64,000 bases of DNA, from the NCBI RefSeq assembly GCF_030160075.1, contig NZ_BSNQ01000003.1, positions 62,001 to 126,000 on the forward strand, in the 5' to 3' direction. Under the pieces are notes generated by a model. It was not told the DNA's origin. It did no database searches and worked only from the letters and a program-made list of their open reading frames with translations. Position 1 is the stretch's first letter. Every line of letters starts with the position of its first letter. Source of the stretch: Dyella lipolytica. Its GTDB lineage: Bacteria; Pseudomonadota; Gammaproteobacteria; Xanthomonadales; Rhodanobacteraceae. This document shows positions 4,727 through 39,309 of the stretch, one piece after another. The position numbers were made by a program, and so were the translations under genes.

Positions 4727-5908
4727 ATGAAGCCGTTTGGCACGCCGCATTCCAACCATGCTCTGAAGGTGCTGTTGCTGGGGTCAGGCGAGCTGGGCAA
4801 GGAAGTGGCGATCGAATTGCAACGTTACGCCGTGGAGGTCATCGCGGTAGACCGTTACGCCAATGCGCCGGCGATGCAGGTGGCGCATCGCAGCCATGTG
4901 ATCGACATGCTGGACGGCGCCGCGTTGCGTGCCCTGATTGCGCAGGAGAAGCCCGATCTGGTGGTGCCCGAAATCGAGGCCATCCATACGCCGACCCTGA
5001 TGGATCTGGAAAAGGAAGGGCTGCACGTGATCCCGACCGCACGCGCGGCCTGGTTGACGATGAACCGTGAAGGCATCCGCCGACTGGCGGCAGAGGAACT
5101 GGGTTTGCCGACGTCGCCCTACCGATTCTGCGACAGCGAGGACGAATACCGCGAAGCGGTGGCGGCGATCGGCTATCCCTTCGTGATCAAGCCGGTGATG
5201 AGTTCATCGGGGAAAGGCCAGAGCATTGTTCGTGACGCATCGGGTGCGCAGGAGGCTTGGGATTACGCCCAAGCCGGTGGTCGCGCCGGCAAGGGCCGAG
5301 TGATCGTCGAAGGTTTCGTGCCATTCGATTACGAAATCACGCTGTTGACGGTAAGCCACAAGAACGGCATCAGCTTCTGTGCGCCGATCGGACATCGCCA
5401 GGAAGACGGCGACTATCGCGAATCCTGGCAACCGCAACCCATGAGTCCGATCGCCTTGGCCGAGGCGCAGCGGCAGGCGGAGGCCATTGCCAGCGCATTG
5501 GGCGGCTGGGGTGTGTTCGGCGTCGAATTCTTTGTGAAGGGCGACGCGGTCATTTTCTCGGAAGTCAGCCCGCGCCCGCACGATACTGGGTTGGTGACGC
5601 TGATCTCCCAGGAGCTATCCGAATTCGCCTTGCATGCGCGGGCGATCCTTGGGCTGCCCATTCCGGTAATCCACCAGAACGGTCCATCCGCCTCGTGCGC
5701 GGTGTTGCTGGAAGGCGAGGGCCGCGCACCGCGATATCACGGCATCACCGACGCTCTGGCGGAGCCGGATACCCAGCTGCGCATCTTCGGCAAGCCTGAG
5801 GTGAAAGGCCGCCGTCGCATGGCGGTAACGTTGGCGCGCGATACCGATATCGATGCGGCCAAAGCCAAGGCGATTCGTGCCGCGAAAGCGATACGGATGG
5901 AGTTGTAG
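4727..5908 (+). CDS. purT: Formate-dependent GAR transformylase PurT
   Basis: PurT makes formylglycinamide ribonucleotide from GAR, formate and ATP, the folate-independent version of the third step of purine synthesis. The 393-residue product has the ATP-grasp layout: [12 protein letters not shown] at about residues 15-26, [21 protein letters not shown], the ATP-binding SSSGKGQS loop, and the metal-binding [10 protein letters not shown]. The ATG at 4727 is chosen because a GGAG box lies six bases upstream and the resulting N terminus matches the length of E. coli PurT (392 residues). Another ATG at 4703 would add eight residues. Confidence 0.95.
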
Positions 5909-5992
5909 AATTCGAAGAGATCCGCAGGTGACGCGCGGCGGCGATGTATCGAGATCACGACGGCGACAGTCGTTGCCGATGGGAGAGCAAGG

Positions 5993-7516
5993 ATGGAATC
6001 GACGGGTTTTGCGCATTGGCTGATCGTGCTGGTAGAGACCTTTGCACTGCTCTTTGTGATGCTAGTGGTCATCGCCATCTTGTTCGTGGCGGTGGTCTGG
6101 GTGATCGATCGCAACCAGACGCACAATTCCGTGTTGCGCAATTATCCGGTGATTGGGCATTTCCGTTATTGGTTTCTGCATCTGGGCGAATTCTTTCGTC
6201 AGTACTTGTACTCCAGCGATCGCGAGGAATTACCGTTCAACCGCGCACAGCGTATGTGGGTCTATCGCGCAGCGAAAAATTCAGAAAATACCAATGCCTT
6301 CGGTTCGACCCGCGATCTGCGCGGAGAAGGTGTGCCGTTCTTCGTCAACGCGGCTTTTCCGTCGCTGGGCGATCATCACGTCAAATCCAAGCCGGTACGC
6401 CTTGGGCCGTATGCGCGCGAGCCATATGACCACGCCTCGTTCTTCAACATTTCCGCGATGAGCTTTGGTGCGCTGTCTGCGCCGGCAGTTCGCGCACTGT
6501 CTATCGGCGCAGCCAAAGCGGGTATCTGGATGGATACCGGCGAAGGCGGCCTGGCGCCGTATCACCTCGAAGGCGGCTGCGACGTCGTGTTCGAGATCGG
6601 CACCGCCAAGTACGGTGTACGCACACCCGAGGGCAAGCTGGACGATCAGAAACTGCTGGCGATCGCTGCACACAAGCAGGTGAAGATGATCAGCATCAAG
6701 CTGGGACAGGGCGCCAAACCGGGTATGGGCGGTTTGCTGCCGGCGGCGAAGGTGACGCCGGAAATCGCGGCGATTCGTGGCATTCCGGTCGGGCAGGATT
6801 CGCAAAGTCCCAACCGGCACCTGGATATCGCCAATGTGCAGCAGCTGATGGATGCGATTGCACATATTCGCGATCTCACCGGCAAACCCACCGGTTTCAA
6901 GGCGGTGTTTGGCGGCATGGAGTGGATCGACGAGCTGTGCGACGAAGTTCATAAGCGCGGTATCGAGAGCGCGCCGGACTTCATCATTGTCGATGGTTCC
7001 GAAGGCGGTACCGGTGCGGCCCCGCAGACCTTGATGGAAGGCGTAGGCCTGCCGTTGCACGAGGCATTGCCGGGTCTGGTCGATACGCTGATCGTGAAAG
7101 GTCTGCGCGAACGCATCAAGGTGATCTGCTCAGGCAAATGCATCACCGCGTATGACGTGGCGTGGGCGCTTTCCATGGGCGCGGATTTCGTCAATTCCGC
7201 GCGCGGTTTCATGCTGGCGCTGGGATGTATCCAGTCCTTGCAGTGCAACCGCAACACGTGTCCCACCGGCATTACCACGCAGAACCCGCGCCTGCAGCGC
7301 GGACTCGTGGTGACGGACAAGAGCGAACGTGTTGCGCACTATGCAAAGAACGTCATGCATGAAGTAGGCATCATCGCGCATAGTTGCGGGGTGGATGATC
7401 CGCGCCAGCTCGATCGCACGCATTGCCGTGTGGTGGGCGATGACGGTATCTCCATACCGCTTATCAAGCTGTTTCCGTATCCGCAGACTTCCGGACAAGA
7501 AAGCTTGAGCAGTTAA
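5993..7516 (+). CDS. Membrane-anchored FMN-binding glutamate synthase-like protein
   Basis: The 507-residue protein has one N-terminal transmembrane helix (about residues 8-40) followed by a full glutamate-synthase FMN (GltB-like) barrel. Conserved pieces are FFNISAMSFGALS, DTGEGGLAPYH, IKLGQGAKPG, DGSEGGTGAAP, and the iron-sulfur cluster motif C-X5-C-X4-C in GCIQSLQCNRNTCPTG. The glutaminase domain and the GltD subunit of real glutamate synthase are absent, so this is the stand-alone FMN-binding family. Its electron donor and substrate are not established. The membrane anchor suggests contact with the quinone pool or a membrane partner, which is inference. Confidence 0.85.
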   Translation: MESTGFAHWLIVLVETFALLFVMLVVIAILFVAVVWVIDRNQTHNSVLRNYPVIGHFRYWFLHLGEFFRQYLYSSDREELPFNRAQRMWVYRAAKNSENTNAFGSTRDLRGEGVPFFVNAAFPSLGDHHVKSKPVRLGPYAREPYDHASFFNISAMSFGALSAPAVRALSIGAAKAGIWMDTGEGGLAPYHLEGGCDVVFEIGTAKYGVRTPEGKLDDQKLLAIAAHKQVKMISIKLGQGAKPGMGGLLPAAKVTPEIAAIRGIPVGQDSQSPNRHLDIANVQQLMDAIAHIRDLTGKPTGFKAVFGGMEWIDELCDEVHKRGIESAPDFIIVDGSEGGTGAAPQTLMEGVGLPLHEALPGLVDTLIVKGLRERIKVICSGKCITAYDVAWALSMGADFVNSARGFMLALGCIQSLQCNRNTCPTGITTQNPRLQRGLVVTDKSERVAHYAKNVMHEVGIIAHSCGVDDPRQLDRTHCRVVGDDGISIPLIKLFPYPQTSGQESLSS

Positions 7517-34682: not shown

Positions 34683-35768
34683 CTAGAAGCCGAACGGCGG
34701 TGTCAGTCCCGTGAAATCGCCGATCTGCTTGGCATCGTAGGGACCGTTGAGCTCGTTGAACCCGTCGCCGGGCGAGTTGAGCGCACCTTGCTGGAACACG
34801 ATTTTTCCTGCTTTGTTGACTTCAATGACACGATCGTTGAATTGATCGCTGATCAAGGTATCGCCGTTGTGCAATCGAACCGCCCGCGTCGGTAGCGGTG
34901 TCGGGTTGCTGCCGGCCTGGGTATTGGTCAGGTATTGCCACACTACGTGGTCAGTGCCGTCGACTTCCACGATGCGGTTGTTGTTCGAGTCGCTGATGAG
35001 CGTATCGCCGTTGGGAAGGCGACTGGCAAAGGCCGCGCCGTTCACTGTGCCTTGCGCCGTGAATTGTTTGACGATCTGCAGATCAGGTTTGACCTCGATG
35101 ACGCGGTTGTTGCTTTCATCTGCAATCAGGATGTGGCCGTTTTCCAGCACCTCGCCGCTGTTGGGATTGTTGAGCTGGTTGGGACCACTGCCGGCTACAC
35201 CTGTAGTGCCGTACTGCCACACAATTTGATGATTGAGGTTGACGACGATGATGCGTTCATTGGCTTGATCCGCAATCAGCACCGCCGGCCCTGGGTGATA
35301 CGGAAAGTCGATCGTAAACAGAGCCTGCACAGGTGTATTCAATTGATTCGGGCCCGATCCTGCGACGCCTGCCTGGCCGTATTGCCAAATGATGTCTCCA
35401 TTGGGATCGACGATAAACACCCGGTTGTCGGGACAGCCGTTGACGGTATCGGAACAGCCCGGAAATCCCGGCGGCGTACCGGTGCCCGAAATCAAGGTGA
35501 GTGGGCCAAACCGTTCGGCATCGTTGGTGCCCACCACGCTGTGCGGGCCGGGAAGATCGGAGCCATTGCCGAAATGCCATACCACCTGATGCGTCTTGCG
35601 ATCGACCTCCACGACGCGGTTGTTGAACTGGTCGGCAATCAAGATATGGCCATTGTCGTTTTGTGCAGCCACCGGGTGTGCATACAGCACACTGGCGGCT
35701 ACGCCGGCCACGGCCATCGCAGTCAGCATGTGTCGAACGATTGGTTTTTGTAACAGGGTGCGTGCCAT
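34683..35768 (-). CDS. Secreted NHL-repeat beta-propeller protein
   Basis: The 361-residue protein has a signal peptide (cleavage near residue 35, before QNDNGHI). At least five NHL-like blades follow, each with a variant of GHILIADQFNNRVVEV: ILIADQ, VLIADQ, ILIADE, TLISDS and TLISDQ, with the N-R-V/I-x-E-V strand and a W-Q/H-Y/F-G strand. Such propellers bind partners or ligands and occasionally act as enzymes. Here there is no catalytic signature. The ATG at 35768 has GGAGGAG upstream. A terminator follows. Role unknown; periplasmic or secreted. Confidence 0.8.
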   Translation of the reverse strand: MARTLLQKPIVRHMLTAMAVAGVAASVLYAHPVAAQNDNGHILIADQFNNRVVEVDRKTHQVVWHFGNGSDLPGPHSVVGTNDAERFGPLTLISGTGTPPGFPGCSDTVNGCPDNRVFIVDPNGDIIWQYGQAGVAGSGPNQLNTPVQALFTIDFPYHPGPAVLIADQANERIIVVNLNHQIVWQYGTTGVAGSGPNQLNNPNSGEVLENGHILIADESNNRVIEVKPDLQIVKQFTAQGTVNGAAFASRLPNGDTLISDSNNNRIVEVDGTDHVVWQYLTNTQAGSNPTPLPTRAVRLHNGDTLISDQFNDRVIEVNKAGKIVFQQGALNSPGDGFNELNGPYDAKQIGDFTGLTPPFGF

Positions 35769-36013
35769 CGGAAACTCCTCCATGCGGGTTGTGAGGAAGC
35801 AAGTCCATCGGCGTCGCGAGCGGTACGCAAAACACGCATCGCAGAACGGCGCGAGTTTGTAGGAAGCTTTTTCGCGGACGAGCGAGACCTAGCCGCGCGC
35901 GCAGCTCCCTGTCCTTACGGGTTTGCCAATCCCCATCTTCACCAGATCGATGGGGTGTGTTGCTCAAGTAGCGTTACGAGTGATGCCTGTCACAGGCGCA
36001 AGTGTCGATATCG

Positions 36014-36706
36014 TCACCACGCATAGGAAATGCTGACGATCCAGGCGTTGCGAGTTACACCCGCGCTTGCCGGATAGCCAAAGACATAGTTGTTTGCGCC
36101 ATAAACCGTCGACCAACTCAGTTGCATGTCGCACGGCGCAAGCGCCAGGCCGACGCCCATGCGGATGTCGGAACGAAAGCGGCTGACGTGGTCGTCCGCT
36201 ACATCGCCGCCACGGCGTAGATAGCCCACGTGTCCGAACACGTACCACGGCCCCGAGAGCGTGTGGCTGTCGTTGAGTTCCGCATACAGCGCGGGATAGC
36301 CGGCGTTGAAGTAATCCGGCGCGTAATACACGCGGCCGACCAGCTGCTTGTAGGTGAGGCCAACGTAGGTTTCCGCATACGCATAAGATTCATGCCCCGT
36401 GAATCCCGTGTATCGCACCCCCGCTTCCCAACTCAGATCGGGCAGCAGGCGCTGCGCGAATCCCGCGTAACCGAGAAGCTGTGCCGCTTGAGTCGGATCG
36501 AGTCGCACGGTGGACATCACACCTCCCGCATACCAACCGCTTGCCGGCAGGTCGTAGTCAAATGCCAATTGAGCGGATGGCCGGTCATCGCTGAGAGAAA
36601 CCCCGCGAAAACGGTAATCGGAAACCAGCGTCGCGCTGCCCGTGACCTGCGCCCTGGCCTGCATCACGAACAAGGTGAGAGCGACTGCCACGACAGCTCG
36701 TAACAC
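36014..36706 (-). CDS. TorF-family putative porin (Gcw_chp)
   Basis: The 230-residue protein has a signal peptide (about 19 residues, MLRAVVAVALTLFVMQARA). A beta-rich domain opens with VTGSATLVSDYRFRGVSLSD, the mark of the Gcw_chp/TorF outer-membrane family, and ends with an aromatic C terminus (SYAW). The GTG start is nine bases after the S8 peptidase stop, so it is the last gene of the sigma operon. Members are predicted porins of unknown substrate. Being encoded with a sigma factor and a protease suggests that it is an effector or cargo of that stress circuit. Confidence 0.85.
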   Translation of the reverse strand: MLRAVVAVALTLFVMQARAQVTGSATLVSDYRFRGVSLSDDRPSAQLAFDYDLPASGWYAGGVMSTVRLDPTQAAQLLGYAGFAQRLLPDLSWEAGVRYTGFTGHESYAYAETYVGLTYKQLVGRVYYAPDYFNAGYPALYAELNDSHTLSGPWYVFGHVGYLRRGGDVADDHVSRFRSDIRMGVGLALAPCDMQLSWSTVYGANNYVFGYPASAGVTRNAWIVSISYAW

Positions 36707-36715
36707 GGGGCGTTC

Positions 36716-37996
36716 TCATCGGCGCGGCACCGAGATGGAAGCATTGGCCGTAGCGCAGTTGCACGTACAACTTCCGCTTACTCGCGCTACGGCCGCGCAT
36801 GCATCGATCATGGCTGGCCGCATTGCGACCAAGCCTAGCGCAGTTTTTGCATTCAAGCTGTCGCGGAGCTGTGCTGGTGTGATATCGGGCGAAAGCTGCC
36901 GAACCAGGGCAACCAATCCGCTGACTTCGGCCGCCGAGAACGACGAACCCGTGACGAAGTTCCACCGCGCGCCGGGCTGAGTCGTGGGGATGTCTTCGCC
37001 AGGCGCGCGCAGCGCGTCGCTGATAACCAATGACTGGGCGCGCTCATCAGCGACCGCCAATACGCCGGGATAGGATGCCGGGAAGCCGCCGTCGGTCGCT
37101 GCCTCATCGACCGCACCGACCACCGTGATGTCGCGTGACAACGCGATATCCAGGAGACGTTCGAGCAAGCGGTCATGCGGGCCGGCAAGACTCAGGTTGA
37201 ATATCTTTGCGCGACTATCCAAGGCGTACTGCAAGGCCTTCGCCAACGTGAAGCTGCTGCATGTTGCCGCAGCGTTGTCTGGCGATGATTGCCAACAGGC
37301 ACGCAGGGCGAGCAAGCGTGCATCGGGTGCAACGCCCGCAATGCCCACGCCGTTACCTTCACGGGCGACGATAATGCCCGCGACTTCCGTGCCGTGCATC
37401 TCGGCACGGTAAACACCATCGTCGACAAAGTTTCGCGTCTGCGTTACCTGACCTGTCAGATCCGGATTCGATGTGTCCACGCCACTGTCGAGCTCGGCGA
37501 TGGTGACGTTCCTGCCCGTGGTGGTTGCATGAAGTTCGGCCAGGTGCCATTGCGTGGCCGTTGGCTGCAGCCGATAAAGCGGGTCGCCTTTCCCCAGCAC
37601 GTGAAACAGCTGCATGGGTTCGACCGACTCCACCCGTGAATCCTGCGACAGCGTCTGAGTTATTTGCTGCGTCGACAATCCTGGAGCTGCACGCATGACA
37701 AAACAATCGAGCCCAAGCGCAGGCATCGGCCAGCCGCTGACGAGCTGCAAGCCGTATTCATGCGCCAGTTGCCGCGCAACGTGTTTTCGCGCCGTTTCAT
37801 CGGGCGTCGCCGCGTAGTTGCCGACGTAGCCATCCGCCGCACGCAAGTGAGGCGGCGCAACGCGCAACATGACCAGAACTTGCGATTGTTCCGCACCCGT
37901 TTCGTACCGGGCTACGGGCGCTGTCGATCTCACCGACGCGCAGCCGCTTAGGCCAAGCACGCACAGCACGATGACCGATGGCCAGGATCTGATCAT
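36716..37996 (-). CDS. S8 (subtilisin-like) serine peptidase, lipoprotein
   Basis: The 426-residue lipoprotein has a lipobox GLSGC (Cys19) and an I9-like prodomain (about 38-135). The peptidase domain has Asp170 (AELDSGVD), His201 (EMHGTEVAGI) and Ser352 (TGSSFSAAEVSG). The site of the canonical Ser is GSSFSA, not GTSMA. At the oxyanion position the usual AAGN is replaced by GAVDE, so Asp297 probably stands for Asn. A C-terminal Cys-rich stretch (SCTCNC) follows. The start overlaps the anti-sigma stop (ATGA), so synthesis is coupled. It probably acts in the periplasm or at the outer membrane. Confidence 0.9.
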   Translation of the reverse strand: MIRSWPSVIVLCVLGLSGCASVRSTAPVARYETGAEQSQVLVMLRVAPPHLRAADGYVGNYAATPDETARKHVARQLAHEYGLQLVSGWPMPALGLDCFVMRAAPGLSTQQITQTLSQDSRVESVEPMQLFHVLGKGDPLYRLQPTATQWHLAELHATTTGRNVTIAELDSGVDTSNPDLTGQVTQTRNFVDDGVYRAEMHGTEVAGIIVAREGNGVGIAGVAPDARLLALRACWQSSPDNAAATCSSFTLAKALQYALDSRAKIFNLSLAGPHDRLLERLLDIALSRDITVVGAVDEAATDGGFPASYPGVLAVADERAQSLVISDALRAPGEDIPTTQPGARWNFVTGSSFSAAEVSGLVALVRQLSPDITPAQLRDSLNAKTALGLVAMRPAMIDACAAVARVSGSCTCNCATANASISVPRR

Positions 37997-38631
37997 TCGC
38001 TCCCGCCCGCTTCCAGGTTTTCCACCATGGTGACTTCAGTGGAGCCATGCAGCATTTTTTGCGCGGCGCTCGCGCGTTCACCGGGTACCCTGAGCAGATA
38101 GGCGCCGGCTTCGGTCGGGCCGCCCACGATGCGTGCATCGCTGGCGCGCACCAGCTGACGCAATTGCGCTTCGCTGATGTGCGGGTCGAACACCACGACT
38201 AACAACGCGCCCCCACTGCTCGGCGCGCTCAGCGTGTGATAGACGGGTTGCCGATTCTGAAACAGTGCTACGCCAAGCACGAGGATCAGCGCCGCTTGCG
38301 CAGCAGCCAGCCACGCAAGTCGTCGGCCGTGACGCATCCACACGGAAGGAGAGGGCGACGGCAAGACAGTTTTGGCATTTTCCGCTTTCATTCGACGACG
38401 CAAACGATGCATCGTCGGCGCTACGTCGCCCGACGTCGCCTCATTGCCGATGTACTCATCCTGTAACGTGCGCAGCCATGATGCTTCGCGTTGGCATTGC
38501 GCGCATTCGGTCAGGTGTTGCTCCACCTGTATGCGCTCGTCTTCCGGCAGGGTTCCATTGACCCACCATGGCAAGAGGCGATCGGCTTCTGCGTGCACCG
38601 AACCTTCAAACTTGATGATCCGACCATTCAT
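37993..38631 (-). CDS. Anti-sigma factor, zinc-finger type, with I9-like periplasmic domain
   Basis: The 212-residue protein has a cytoplasmic zf-HC2 anti-sigma domain with the His-X3-Cys-X2-Cys motif (QHLTECAQCQ: His39, Cys43, Cys46), one membrane helix (about 104-124) and a periplasmic part (125-212). That part includes LLVVVFDPHISEAQLRQLV, ASDARIVGGP and GAYLLRVPGERASA. It resembles a subtilase propeptide/I9 inhibitor: a strand, a helix, then 'iv.gp....g.y.lrvp'. The ATG at 38631 has GGAGG five bases upstream and overlaps the sigma stop by four bases. The downstream gene is an S8 peptidase. Confidence 0.88.
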   Translation of the reverse strand: MNGRIIKFEGSVHAEADRLLPWWVNGTLPEDERIQVEQHLTECAQCQREASWLRTLQDEYIGNEATSGDVAPTMHRLRRRMKAENAKTVLPSPSPSVWMRHGRRLAWLAAAQAALILVLGVALFQNRQPVYHTLSAPSSGGALLVVVFDPHISEAQLRQLVRASDARIVGGPTEAGAYLLRVPGERASAAQKMLHGSTEVTMVENLEAGGSE

Positions 38632-39218
38632 ATGGCCTCCCGGCGCGACGCCAAGCACGCTTTAAGCTTGCGCCGCGCATAAAACATTCGCGTCTTTACG
38701 GTGTCGACCGGGCAACCCATGATCTGGGCGATTTCACGACAGCCGTAGCCAAAGTAGTAGGTAAGCTCCATCACCGCGCGCTGTTCGGCCGAGAGCGTGC
38801 CGAGCGCGTCGTCCAGATGCTTGCGCAATTCCTGCTGCTGCAATGCGTCGTCGGGGCCGACGGTGGTGGTGTCGATGTGCTCGCTGGAATCGACATCCGC
38901 CGGTTCACCGAATCGTTTGAGCGCTTTCAGTGATTGGCGATAAGCAATCGCCAGAATCCAGGTGGATACCTTCGCGGTGTGATTGAAGGTATACGCCTTG
39001 CGCCAGACCACCATCATGGTGTCGTCGATAATTTCCTCGACCAGCGCCGGTTGCTTCGTCATGCCGCGCACAAAGCGCTGCAGGCGCGGCTGGTAGATGC
39101 GATAGAGCTTGTCGAAGGCATCCATTTCTTCCGCAGCCACGCGGCTAAGCAGGGCAGCCTCTTCCTCAGACGAGGCACCATCGCCGCGCTTTGCCGTATC
39201 CGCCTGCCTGTCGTGCAT
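38628..39218 (-). CDS. ECF RNA polymerase sigma factor
   Basis: The 196-residue sigma-70 ECF factor has region 2 (about 30-100: FDKLYRIYQPRLQRFVRGM, EEIIDDTMMVVWRKAY, STWILAIAYRQSLKAL) and region 4 (about 130-190: LSAEQRAVMELTYYFGYGC, REIAQIMGCPVDTVKTRMFYARRKL). The ATG at 39218 has GGGAG upstream; in-frame codons further upstream have no better site. It is the first gene of the sigma, anti-sigma, S8 peptidase, TorF operon, all overlapping or nearly so. ECF genes linked to an anti-sigma and a protease usually answer envelope stress; autoregulation is likely but no promoter was found. Confidence 0.92.
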   Translation of the reverse strand: MHDRQADTAKRGDGASSEEEAALLSRVAAEEMDAFDKLYRIYQPRLQRFVRGMTKQPALVEEIIDDTMMVVWRKAYTFNHTAKVSTWILAIAYRQSLKALKRFGEPADVDSSEHIDTTTVGPDDALQQQELRKHLDDALGTLSAEQRAVMELTYYFGYGCREIAQIMGCPVDTVKTRMFYARRKLKACLASRREAI

Positions 39219-39282
39219 GGCCGCTCCCGGGGCTCCGTGCCCTTCGCGTATACGTCCATACCCTGCGCGGGCATTTTGGTTC

Positions 39283-39309
39283 ATTCGGGTGGCTTTGAGC
39301 CACCCGAAT
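39283..39309. terminator. Perfect hairpin between the LysR and sigma genes
   Basis: A perfect 12-base-pair stem with a three-base loop (attcgggtggct / agccacccgaat) lies between the LysR stop (39376) and the sigma start. There is no T-tract, so it could be a weak terminator of the LysR gene or a structure in the leader of the sigma operon. Confidence 0.45.

Follow-up and report, generated by a model that had tools for sequence, protein, structure and literature searches.

A subtilase prodomain-like periplasmic domain in a membrane-bound anti-sigma factor encoded beside an S8 protease in Dyella lipolytica

Zinc-finger anti-sigma factors are released by regulated intramembrane proteolysis in the systems of RseA, with DegS and RseP, and of RsiV, with signal peptidase; to our knowledge, the trigger is unknown for most ECF sigma factors. 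We analyzed a four-gene operon of Dyella lipolytica lying in a window of 64,000 nucleotides (the whole stretch of DNA under analysis: contig NZ_BSNQ01000003.1, positions 62,001 to 126,000 of the forward strand). Like the RseA and RsiV systems, the operon pairs an ECF sigma gene with an adjacent anti-sigma gene, whose product has a zf-HC2 part in the cytoplasm, a single membrane helix and a domain in the periplasm; unlike in those systems, this last domain resembles a subtilase prodomain, and the operon includes a gene for a subtilase. A dedicated co-encoded protease tied to an ECF sigma switch also occurs in Craspase, which is linked to an anti-sigma-like target; Craspase, however, is cytoplasmic, RNA-activated and caspase-like, and we know of no prodomain-like domain in it. 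It is described as the TPR-CHAT protease Csx29 of a CRISPR system (PMC10028731). Free-standing subtilase propeptide-like inhibitors have been reported, namely SUB1-ProM (PMC6993865) and POIA1 and YIB2 (PMC10580911), and in these, as here, a prodomain fold is encoded apart from the protease. SUB1-ProM, as it is described, has a helix-capping Glu and a tail at its C-terminus (PMC6993865), and by alignment the domain resembles it in both; in contrast to the free-standing inhibitors, the domain belongs to a regulator of transcription, and the hydrophobic plug is absent from most of its copies. The genetic context reported for ECF54 includes subtilase, carboxypeptidase and CHAT proteins, and a subtilase beside an ECF sigma gene is common to both cases, but ECF54 is described as controlled by proteolysis without an anti-sigma factor (PMC8999054). 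In the literature searched we found no description of a protease-sensing gene switch of the kind proposed below, and the trio of sigma factor, inhibitor and subtilase, in which the outer part of the inhibitor resembles a protease cap, points to a hitherto unreported route from a protease to gene activation.

All four genes (sigma, anti-sigma, S8 and TorF) are carried by the minus strand (Table 1). The initial annotation had the first three genes overlapping by ATGA and the porin-like gene following after nine bases, and the sequence agrees on each point: TCAT stands on the plus strand at 38628-38631 (sigma/anti-sigma junction) and at 37993-37996 (anti-sigma/S8 junction), so that both overlaps are ATGA, and TorF starts 9 bases past the S8 stop. 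The anti-sigma factor is made up of a predicted zinc-finger sigma-binding part, one predicted membrane helix and a prodomain-like periplasmic domain. Its zf-HC2 match (E 1.4e-8, 35.1 bits against a cut-off of 22.2), encoded beside an ECF sigma gene with the ATGA overlap, places it among the zinc-finger anti-sigma factors. C-terminal of the membrane helix there is a juxtamembrane Y-x-T-L-S at residues 131-135, whose Tyr131 is nearly invariant (at least 90% across 32 aligned relatives). The protease belongs to Peptidase S8 by its fold and D-H-S triad, with catalytic residues D170, H201, N267 and S352 all present, and the best PDB matches of its whole model were pro-subtilisin E and fervidolysin.

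Table 1. Features of the operon, in coordinates of the window
Feature	Position	Strand	Basis
Putative ECF-type promoter, TGAACC-N15-GGTAT, ~40 bases upstream of the sigma ATG	39258..39283	-	Exact match
ECF sigma factor, 196 aa	38628..39218	-	Pfam Sigma70_r2 and Sigma70_r4_2; NCBIfam sigma70-ECF
Membrane-bound anti-sigma factor, 212 aa, ATG start	37993..38631	-	zf-HC2 at residues 15-47
Single membrane helix of the anti-sigma factor, ~residues 105-126	38254..38319	-	By eye from the sequence
Prodomain-like periplasmic domain of the anti-sigma factor, ~residues 141-205	38017..38211	-	PF22148 match; AF2 topology; PDB propeptide matches
Free C-terminal tail of the anti-sigma factor after Glu204, 8 residues	37996..38019	-	Tail lengths over 70 aligned domains
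S8 subtilase, 426 aa, putative lipoprotein (by eye)	36716..37996	-	Peptidase_S8 E 1.3e-26
Own prodomain of the S8 protein, ~residues 38-133, E-H-E-E-H-E order	37598..37885	-	AF2 model
TorF family putative outer-membrane porin, 230 aa	36014..36706	-	TIGR02001 E 3.3e-19; PF09694 (TorF/Gcw_chp) E 2.4e-15

Residues 125-212 of the anti-sigma factor had been read as an I9 propeptide. The likeness to a prodomain is borne out by PF22148, by profile comparison and by the predicted fold; the I9 assignment is not, lacking any PF05922 match, and the domain extends over residues ~141-205 instead. A genome scan with Inhibitor I9 (PF05922) came back empty at E 0.001, and I9 does not appear either when the Pfam matches of the anti-sigma factor are followed up to E 1. 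Our results support instead the fervidolysin-type PF22148 (Fervidolysin_NPro-like) as the nearest family. Against a curated cut-off of 21 bits, the anti-sigma factor scored 20.1 as a whole protein, 22.2 as a domain and 21.5 in the genome scan, where its domain was the only PF22148 match up to E 1. With a threshold of E 0.01, the same family also matched 18 of 48 anti-sigma domains of relatives, the best at 1.6e-6; among 24 operon S8 proteins, 5 matched at E 0.1, counted irrespective of position in the chain, the best at 0.0042. Aligned with hhalign to two kinds of S8 prodomain, the anti-sigma domain scored 27.1 and 21.6, and none of 150 column shuffles reached either score (maxima 20.4 and 16.3). 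The segment of helix 2 and strand 4 fits the S8 prodomain in a single register (mean BLOSUM +12.7 over 22 loci, against -6.5 to -18 at other shifts).

The AF2 model gives the periplasmic domain a beta-alpha-beta-beta-alpha-beta topology (E-H-E-E-H-E; block pLDDT mostly 95-97). Fold comparison with the PDB superposed it on the subtilisin propeptides 1spb_P and 1scj_B (target TM 0.68; rmsd 2.3 and 2.0), so the predicted model is prodomain-like, as the initial annotation expected; its further claim that the S8 protein carries a similar prodomain of its own likewise agrees with the AF2 prediction, in which both have the same topology. By topology and superposition the modelled domain thus has the subtilase prodomain fold, though one common to the wider ferredoxin-like class: unrelated proteins match too, NikR and ribosomal protein S6 among them, and the fold alone is not specific. 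A Foldseek search with the model returned no match better than E 0.001, and when the PDB was searched by sequence, using the profile of the domain, no propeptide was returned (best E 0.38); the propeptides emerged by fold comparison only.

The linkage of anti-sigma and S8 genes, proposed from this locus as an unusual design, turned out to be widespread, being conserved across Proteobacteria. Neither of the two refuting conditions of the initial annotation that were examined, on fold and on linkage, came true. Of the 60 neighbourhoods read, 45 have S8 beside the sigma/anti-sigma pair; the set comprises 20 family neighbourhoods hand-picked from the match list to cover its clades, 20 of 22 non-family matches (G327 and G240 were left out) and 20 of the 39 matches of a further set. 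Outside the class, S8 stands beside the pair in 13 of 13. By hand tally over the zf-HC2 genes of 30 genomes, S8 lies within 3 kb of 14/16 genes with the domain and of 1/22 without it, in control genomes that were selected for holding the domain and with less than 3 kb on one side of four of the 22 control stretches. On re-reading, none of these 22 genes had a domain match up to E 1 and 19 had a sigma-like ORF; the sole control gene with S8 (G717:C6) is divergent from its sigma gene. Reciprocally, an anti-sigma gene adjoins 12 of 15 S8 genes carrying the matching prodomain. In the survey searches scoring was limited to 12-14 first-look candidates per genome, which makes missed cases likely. Three domain loci, all in one family, have no neighbouring S8, and two of their genomes have no S8 match at E 1e-5. 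In one case an S8 gene stands beside a sigma/anti-sigma pair that lacks the domain. Caspase genes adjoin the domain copies of some relatives, and other neighbours also occur. Catalytic D, H, N and S are complete in 67 of 71 S8 entries (59 of 63 distinct ones). Judged from these sequences, the prodomain-like domain is kept beside an S8 protease whose catalytic residues are preserved in many proteobacterial lineages, which supports a genetic tie between the two across Proteobacteria.

The last strand of the domain carries a Glu (Glu204) that, by alignment, would sit where subtilisin propeptides cap the enzyme helices; in the BPN' propeptide the helix-capping residue is given as Glu69 (PMC6993865). 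In an alignment that includes many near relatives, this column holds E or Q in 34/35 type-1 S8-linked rows, Glu in 5/19 type-2 S8-linked rows, and E or Q in 0/9 rows of the caspase-linked set, where L091, L093 and L094 were placed by clade, without a caspase match of their own. The commonest tail past the Glu column is 8 residues (17 of 35 type-1 rows), the same as follows Glu69 in the 77-residue BPN' prosegment, and 13 of 19 type-2 domains end within 5 residues of the column. Known propeptides are described as plugging the enzyme pocket with a hydrophobic residue (PMC6993865, PMC10580911); the beta2-beta3 hairpin of this anti-sigma factor (GPTEAGAY) has none, and at any hairpin position tested at most 6/35 type-1 and 8/19 type-2 rows have one.

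We infer, at slightly less than an even chance, a protease-coupled sigma/anti-sigma module in which S8 would recognise the prodomain-like domain and make the first cut. In the resting cell, the periplasmic domain would shield the linker and keep the site-2 protease off. An unspecified envelope signal would lead to mature S8 freed from its own prodomain, which would bind the anti-sigma domain like a prodomain, with the sheet on two surface helices, Glu204 capping and the tail directed towards the active site. S8 would then degrade the domain or cut the juxtamembrane linker (site-1 cleavage), intramembrane proteolysis would follow, and the freed sigma factor would fire its own promoter, giving more anti-sigma factor, S8 and TorF in a feedback loop. 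Against simple docking stand the caspase neighbours, the two genomes that have the domain but show no S8 match, and the absence of the plug from most sequences.

Two comparisons addressed the specificity of the domain-S8 pair. Partial Mantel tests on tree distances over 56 loci gave r 0.28 for domain and S8 given sigma, 0.23 for the zinc-finger part and S8 given sigma, and 0.29 for domain and sigma given S8; since these do not single out the domain-S8 pair, we did not use them as support. Among 22 loci, the domain was no more similar to the S8 prodomain in cognate than in non-cognate pairs (1163 of 5000 permutations reach the similarity). A ferredoxin-like domain whose only role is to respond to another input or to obstruct the site-2 protease, with S8 as an ordinary co-regulated target gene, would fit how common such folds are (NikR and S6 again), the occurrence of the domain where the genome has no S8 match, and the presence of other neighbours. 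Yet among the 38 zf-HC2 genes S8 stands beside domain carriers and almost never beside the rest, the reciprocal linkage is nearly complete, and coincidence would have to explain why the profiles of the domain and the S8 prodomain agree in register; we consider this explanation unlikely, if deserving of some weight.

The domain could also be a propeptide-type inhibitor that silences leaked or mature S8 at the inner membrane, S8 being an effector of the regulon rather than the activator of sigma, and another site-1 protease answering the signal. The Glu in the helix-cap position and the BPN'-like tail length speak for this, and separately encoded propeptide-like inhibitors are known, as reported for SUB1-ProM (PMC6993865); however, most type-1 rows lack the plug, most type-2 partners have only a very short tail, and such an inhibitor is not expected to act on the caspases beside related copies. 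We judge this account unlikely as well. Subtilase prodomains are described as folding chaperones (PMC10580911), and a prodomain-like periplasmic domain might help secreted S8 to fold at the membrane, with sigma reporting its folding or export state. This we regard as highly improbable, since S8 carries its own predicted prodomain and a second one is not needed.

Were S8 indeed to act on the anti-sigma factor through this domain, the protease's own inhibitory cap would have been reused as a sensor, and in many genomes the S8, caspase-like and TorF genes would gain a suggested function. Because the operon itself seems to point to the input enzyme, for which the anti-sigma factor offers a recognisable docking shape, the signal step could be tested with two purified proteins. 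More tentatively, and with the balance somewhat against it, a subtilase prodomain built into a membrane anti-sigma factor may have founded a receptor class spread over Proteobacteria, in which free protease is the signal and is read by a copy of its cap; after a swap to caspase, the cap would have lost its subtilase-binding Glu.

The operon is preceded by a conserved, putative ECF-type promoter, the sole convincing copy found in its own genome. Over 20 related loci the pattern was exact in 10 and within one mismatch in 18, at a nearly constant position, a count that is not independent because the motif had first been read by eye from 14 loci. In the D. lipolytica genome the pattern had 2 exact matches, as many as its reversed control; when the pattern was made stricter and one mismatch was allowed, it had 4 matches and the control 3. 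Besides the operon there were 3 genomic promoter matches, with no convincing target gene at any of them; one sits antisense within an usher-like gene.

The most economical account of this operon is a protease-coupled switch, in which the operon-made S8 subtilase would recognise the prodomain-like periplasmic domain of the anti-sigma factor (about residues 141-205; below, the domain) and would make the first cut. A full-text literature search, with preprints and most subscription journals outside its scope, returned no account of an anti-sigma factor with a prodomain-like domain. Among published cases ECF54 comes closest: its genes are described as lacking an anti-sigma factor and as lying near subtilase and CHAT genes (PMC8999054). 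The coordinates read agree with the layout in the initial annotation: the sigma/anti-sigma and anti-sigma/S8 junctions are ATGA overlaps, and 9 bases separate S8 from the porin gene. The genome has two such operons, the one in the window and a paralogue at G000:C3:2168578; the two named relatives recovered by sequence are both Dyella (L004, L005).

Coordinates of the operon genes, the putative promoter motif and the caspase-domain neighbours of related loci
Feature	Position	Strand	Basis or remark
ECF sigma factor	39218-38628	-	Pfam + NCBIfam
zf-HC2 anti-sigma factor	38631-37993	-	Pfam + NCBIfam
S8 subtilase	37996-36716	-	Pfam + NCBIfam
TorF family porin	36706-36014	-	Pfam + NCBIfam
TGAACC-N15-GGTAT, putative promoter motif	39258-39283		upstream of sigma
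Caspase-domain (C14) proteins close to anti-sigma domains of this kind	L071:7111-8475, L097:9973-11913, L147:5953-6804		two with Sel1 repeats

The domain was found in 22/369 genomes sampled from Gammaproteobacteria and 36/398 sampled from Pseudomonadota; within Rhodanobacteraceae, the full-length anti-sigma protein had matches in 86/147 genomes, only part of them checked for the domain. We read 60 neighbourhoods: 20 chosen from the family, 20 from the rest of the class, and a phylum set of 20 (one family member, six class members and 13 from outside the class). Conservation of the anti-sigma/S8 order in other genomes, named by the initial annotation as a check, was evident: S8 adjoined the sigma/anti-sigma pair in 15/20, 14/20 (six misses, one of them where a contig stops) and 16/20 neighbourhoods, respectively, including 13/13 from outside the class.

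We tallied by hand 30 genomes selected because the domain is present. S8 lay within 3 kb of 26/33 domain places; seven of the genomes had only one S8 match, and in each of them it was the neighbour of the domain. As a control, among the 38 zf-HC2 matches in these genomes, S8 was within 3 kb in 14/16 with the domain versus 1/22 without it; a search of those 22 genes up to E 1 recovered the domain in none, leaving the same single gene with S8. S8 prodomains are of two kinds, type 1 (W-P), to which the one in the window belongs, and type 2. The reciprocal search, with only the type-1 prodomain as query, gave 15 places in 13/369 genomes, 12 of them adjacent to a domain-bearing anti-sigma gene. At two more, L177 and L179, sigma is accompanied by an anti-sigma-like gene; the profile misses its C-terminus, which by eye shows the same pattern. 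The remaining one (L180) begins at a contig end. Gene order is scrambled at one related locus (L149:4348-6808; sigma forward, anti-sigma reverse, S8 forward), and at another (L162:4358-6828) S8 is divergent from a sigma/anti-sigma pair in which the domain is absent from the anti-sigma factor.

A Peptidase_C14 gene near the domain was confirmed in all three relatives tested (L071, L097, L147), and inspection by eye showed a caspase in L092 and L157 too. A protease gene stays nearby even when its family changes, which favours proteolysis of the anti-sigma factor. Two alternatives, a domain that acts as a tether or inhibitor and a generic plug with S8 co-regulated, appear less probable to us than the protease-coupled switch. 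Family f92 has three domain copies without an adjoining S8, and an S8 search at E 1e-5 came up empty in two of these genomes. S8 was not found in the stretches read at L086, L150 and L155 (the first two also in longer stretches, L163 and L164), where caspases were sought by eye only; L155 carries a pair of prodomain-like anti-sigma domains, one on each strand and separated by about 0.6 kb (5448-5951 and 6531-7268). The S8-less copies L074, L079 and L081 keep the Glu of the Glu204 column and have Trp at the end (2/3 genomes without an S8 match); at least L074 and L081 lie, by eye, beside Gfo/Idh-like and carAB-like genes. In L091, L092, L094 and L097 an OmpA-like gene stands first, as judged by eye.

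The initial annotation had described the domain as I9 propeptide-like. I9 itself was without a match and was rejected; the likeness to a subtilase prodomain stood, through PF22148 (fervidolysin N-terminal prodomain) and the predicted fold. PF22148 scored 20.1 bits against the whole protein, just below its cut-off of 21, with the match at the C-terminus, 22.2 bits against the excised domain and 21.5 bits in the genome scan. It was matched at E 0.01 by 18/48 related anti-sigma domains (best 1.6e-6), and at E 0.1 by 5/24 operon S8 proteins (best 0.0042; the match table gives no position in the protein). An AlphaFold2 model of a 95-residue anti-sigma piece, with 48 relatives as input (mean pLDDT 86, and 95-97 in blocks spanning most of the core), has strand 24-31, helix 37-46, strand 50-53, strand 60-66, helix 67-79 and strand 83-88. 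Foldseek against the PDB aligned the model with subtilisin propeptides (target TM 0.67-0.68, rmsd 2.0-2.5) and POIA1 (0.62), NikR and ribosomal protein S6 also being among the matches, none below E 0.001; querying PDB sequences with the domain profile brought up no propeptide. The similar prodomain that had been claimed for the neighbouring S8 was recovered in its predicted model with the same order of elements, and the best PDB matches of that model were pro-subtilisin E and fervidolysin.

Using hhalign, 70 anti-sigma domains scored 27.1 against 33 type-1 S8 prodomains and 21.6 against 18 type-2 prodomains, and 0/150 column shuffles reached either score. Across 22 loci the final helix and strand of the two agreed in a single register, and cognate pairs had no extra similarity over non-cognate ones. 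The resemblance therefore seems to reflect common descent, or a likeness shared class-wide, and not mimicry between individual partners.

Glu69 and Asp71 of the subtilisin BPN' propeptide cap two surface helices in known complexes, with the tail in the active site (PMC6993865, PMC10580911). The Glu204 column, aligned to the BPN' cap position, holds E in 32/35 and Q in 2/35 type-1 S8-linked domains, and E in 5/19 type-2 S8-linked, 4/7 unlinked and 0/9 caspase-linked ones, L091, L093 and L094 having been placed in the last set by clade alone. Eight residues follow Glu204 in the window; this tail is exactly 8 in 17/35 type-1 rows and 5-11 in 33/35, and 13/19 type-2 S8-linked domains end within 5 residues of the column. 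Position 206, where BPN' Asp71 would fall, is Leu, and most type-1 rows, unlike known propeptides, have no hydrophobic plug in the hairpin. Tyr131, just outside the membrane, is almost invariant; its neighbourhood is, by inference only, a candidate site-1 region.

The putative promoter motif was exact in 10/20 related loci and within one mismatch in 18/20, always 639-679 bases 5' of the anti-sigma start. Elsewhere in the own genome there was one exact match, antisense within an unrelated gene, and the reversed control gave two; judging from these motif counts, the regulon may hardly extend beyond the operon. TorF-like genes occurred in 10/62 loci screened, directly 3' of S8 in eight (two of these outside the class), which suggests a four-gene unit. 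Pfam assigned Gcw_chp to four of seven downstream candidates (L077, L141, L142, L146) and not to L176, L177 and L179. S8 orthologues of the window's clade share a conserved Cys-rich C-terminal tail (C-x-C-x-C, many ending PRR; 36716-36790 in the window). Downstream of the operon, the following ORF in this orientation (34683-35783) encodes a secreted-looking repeat protein in which 'ILIADQ-NNRVVEV' units recur; by eye it resembles a beta-propeller.
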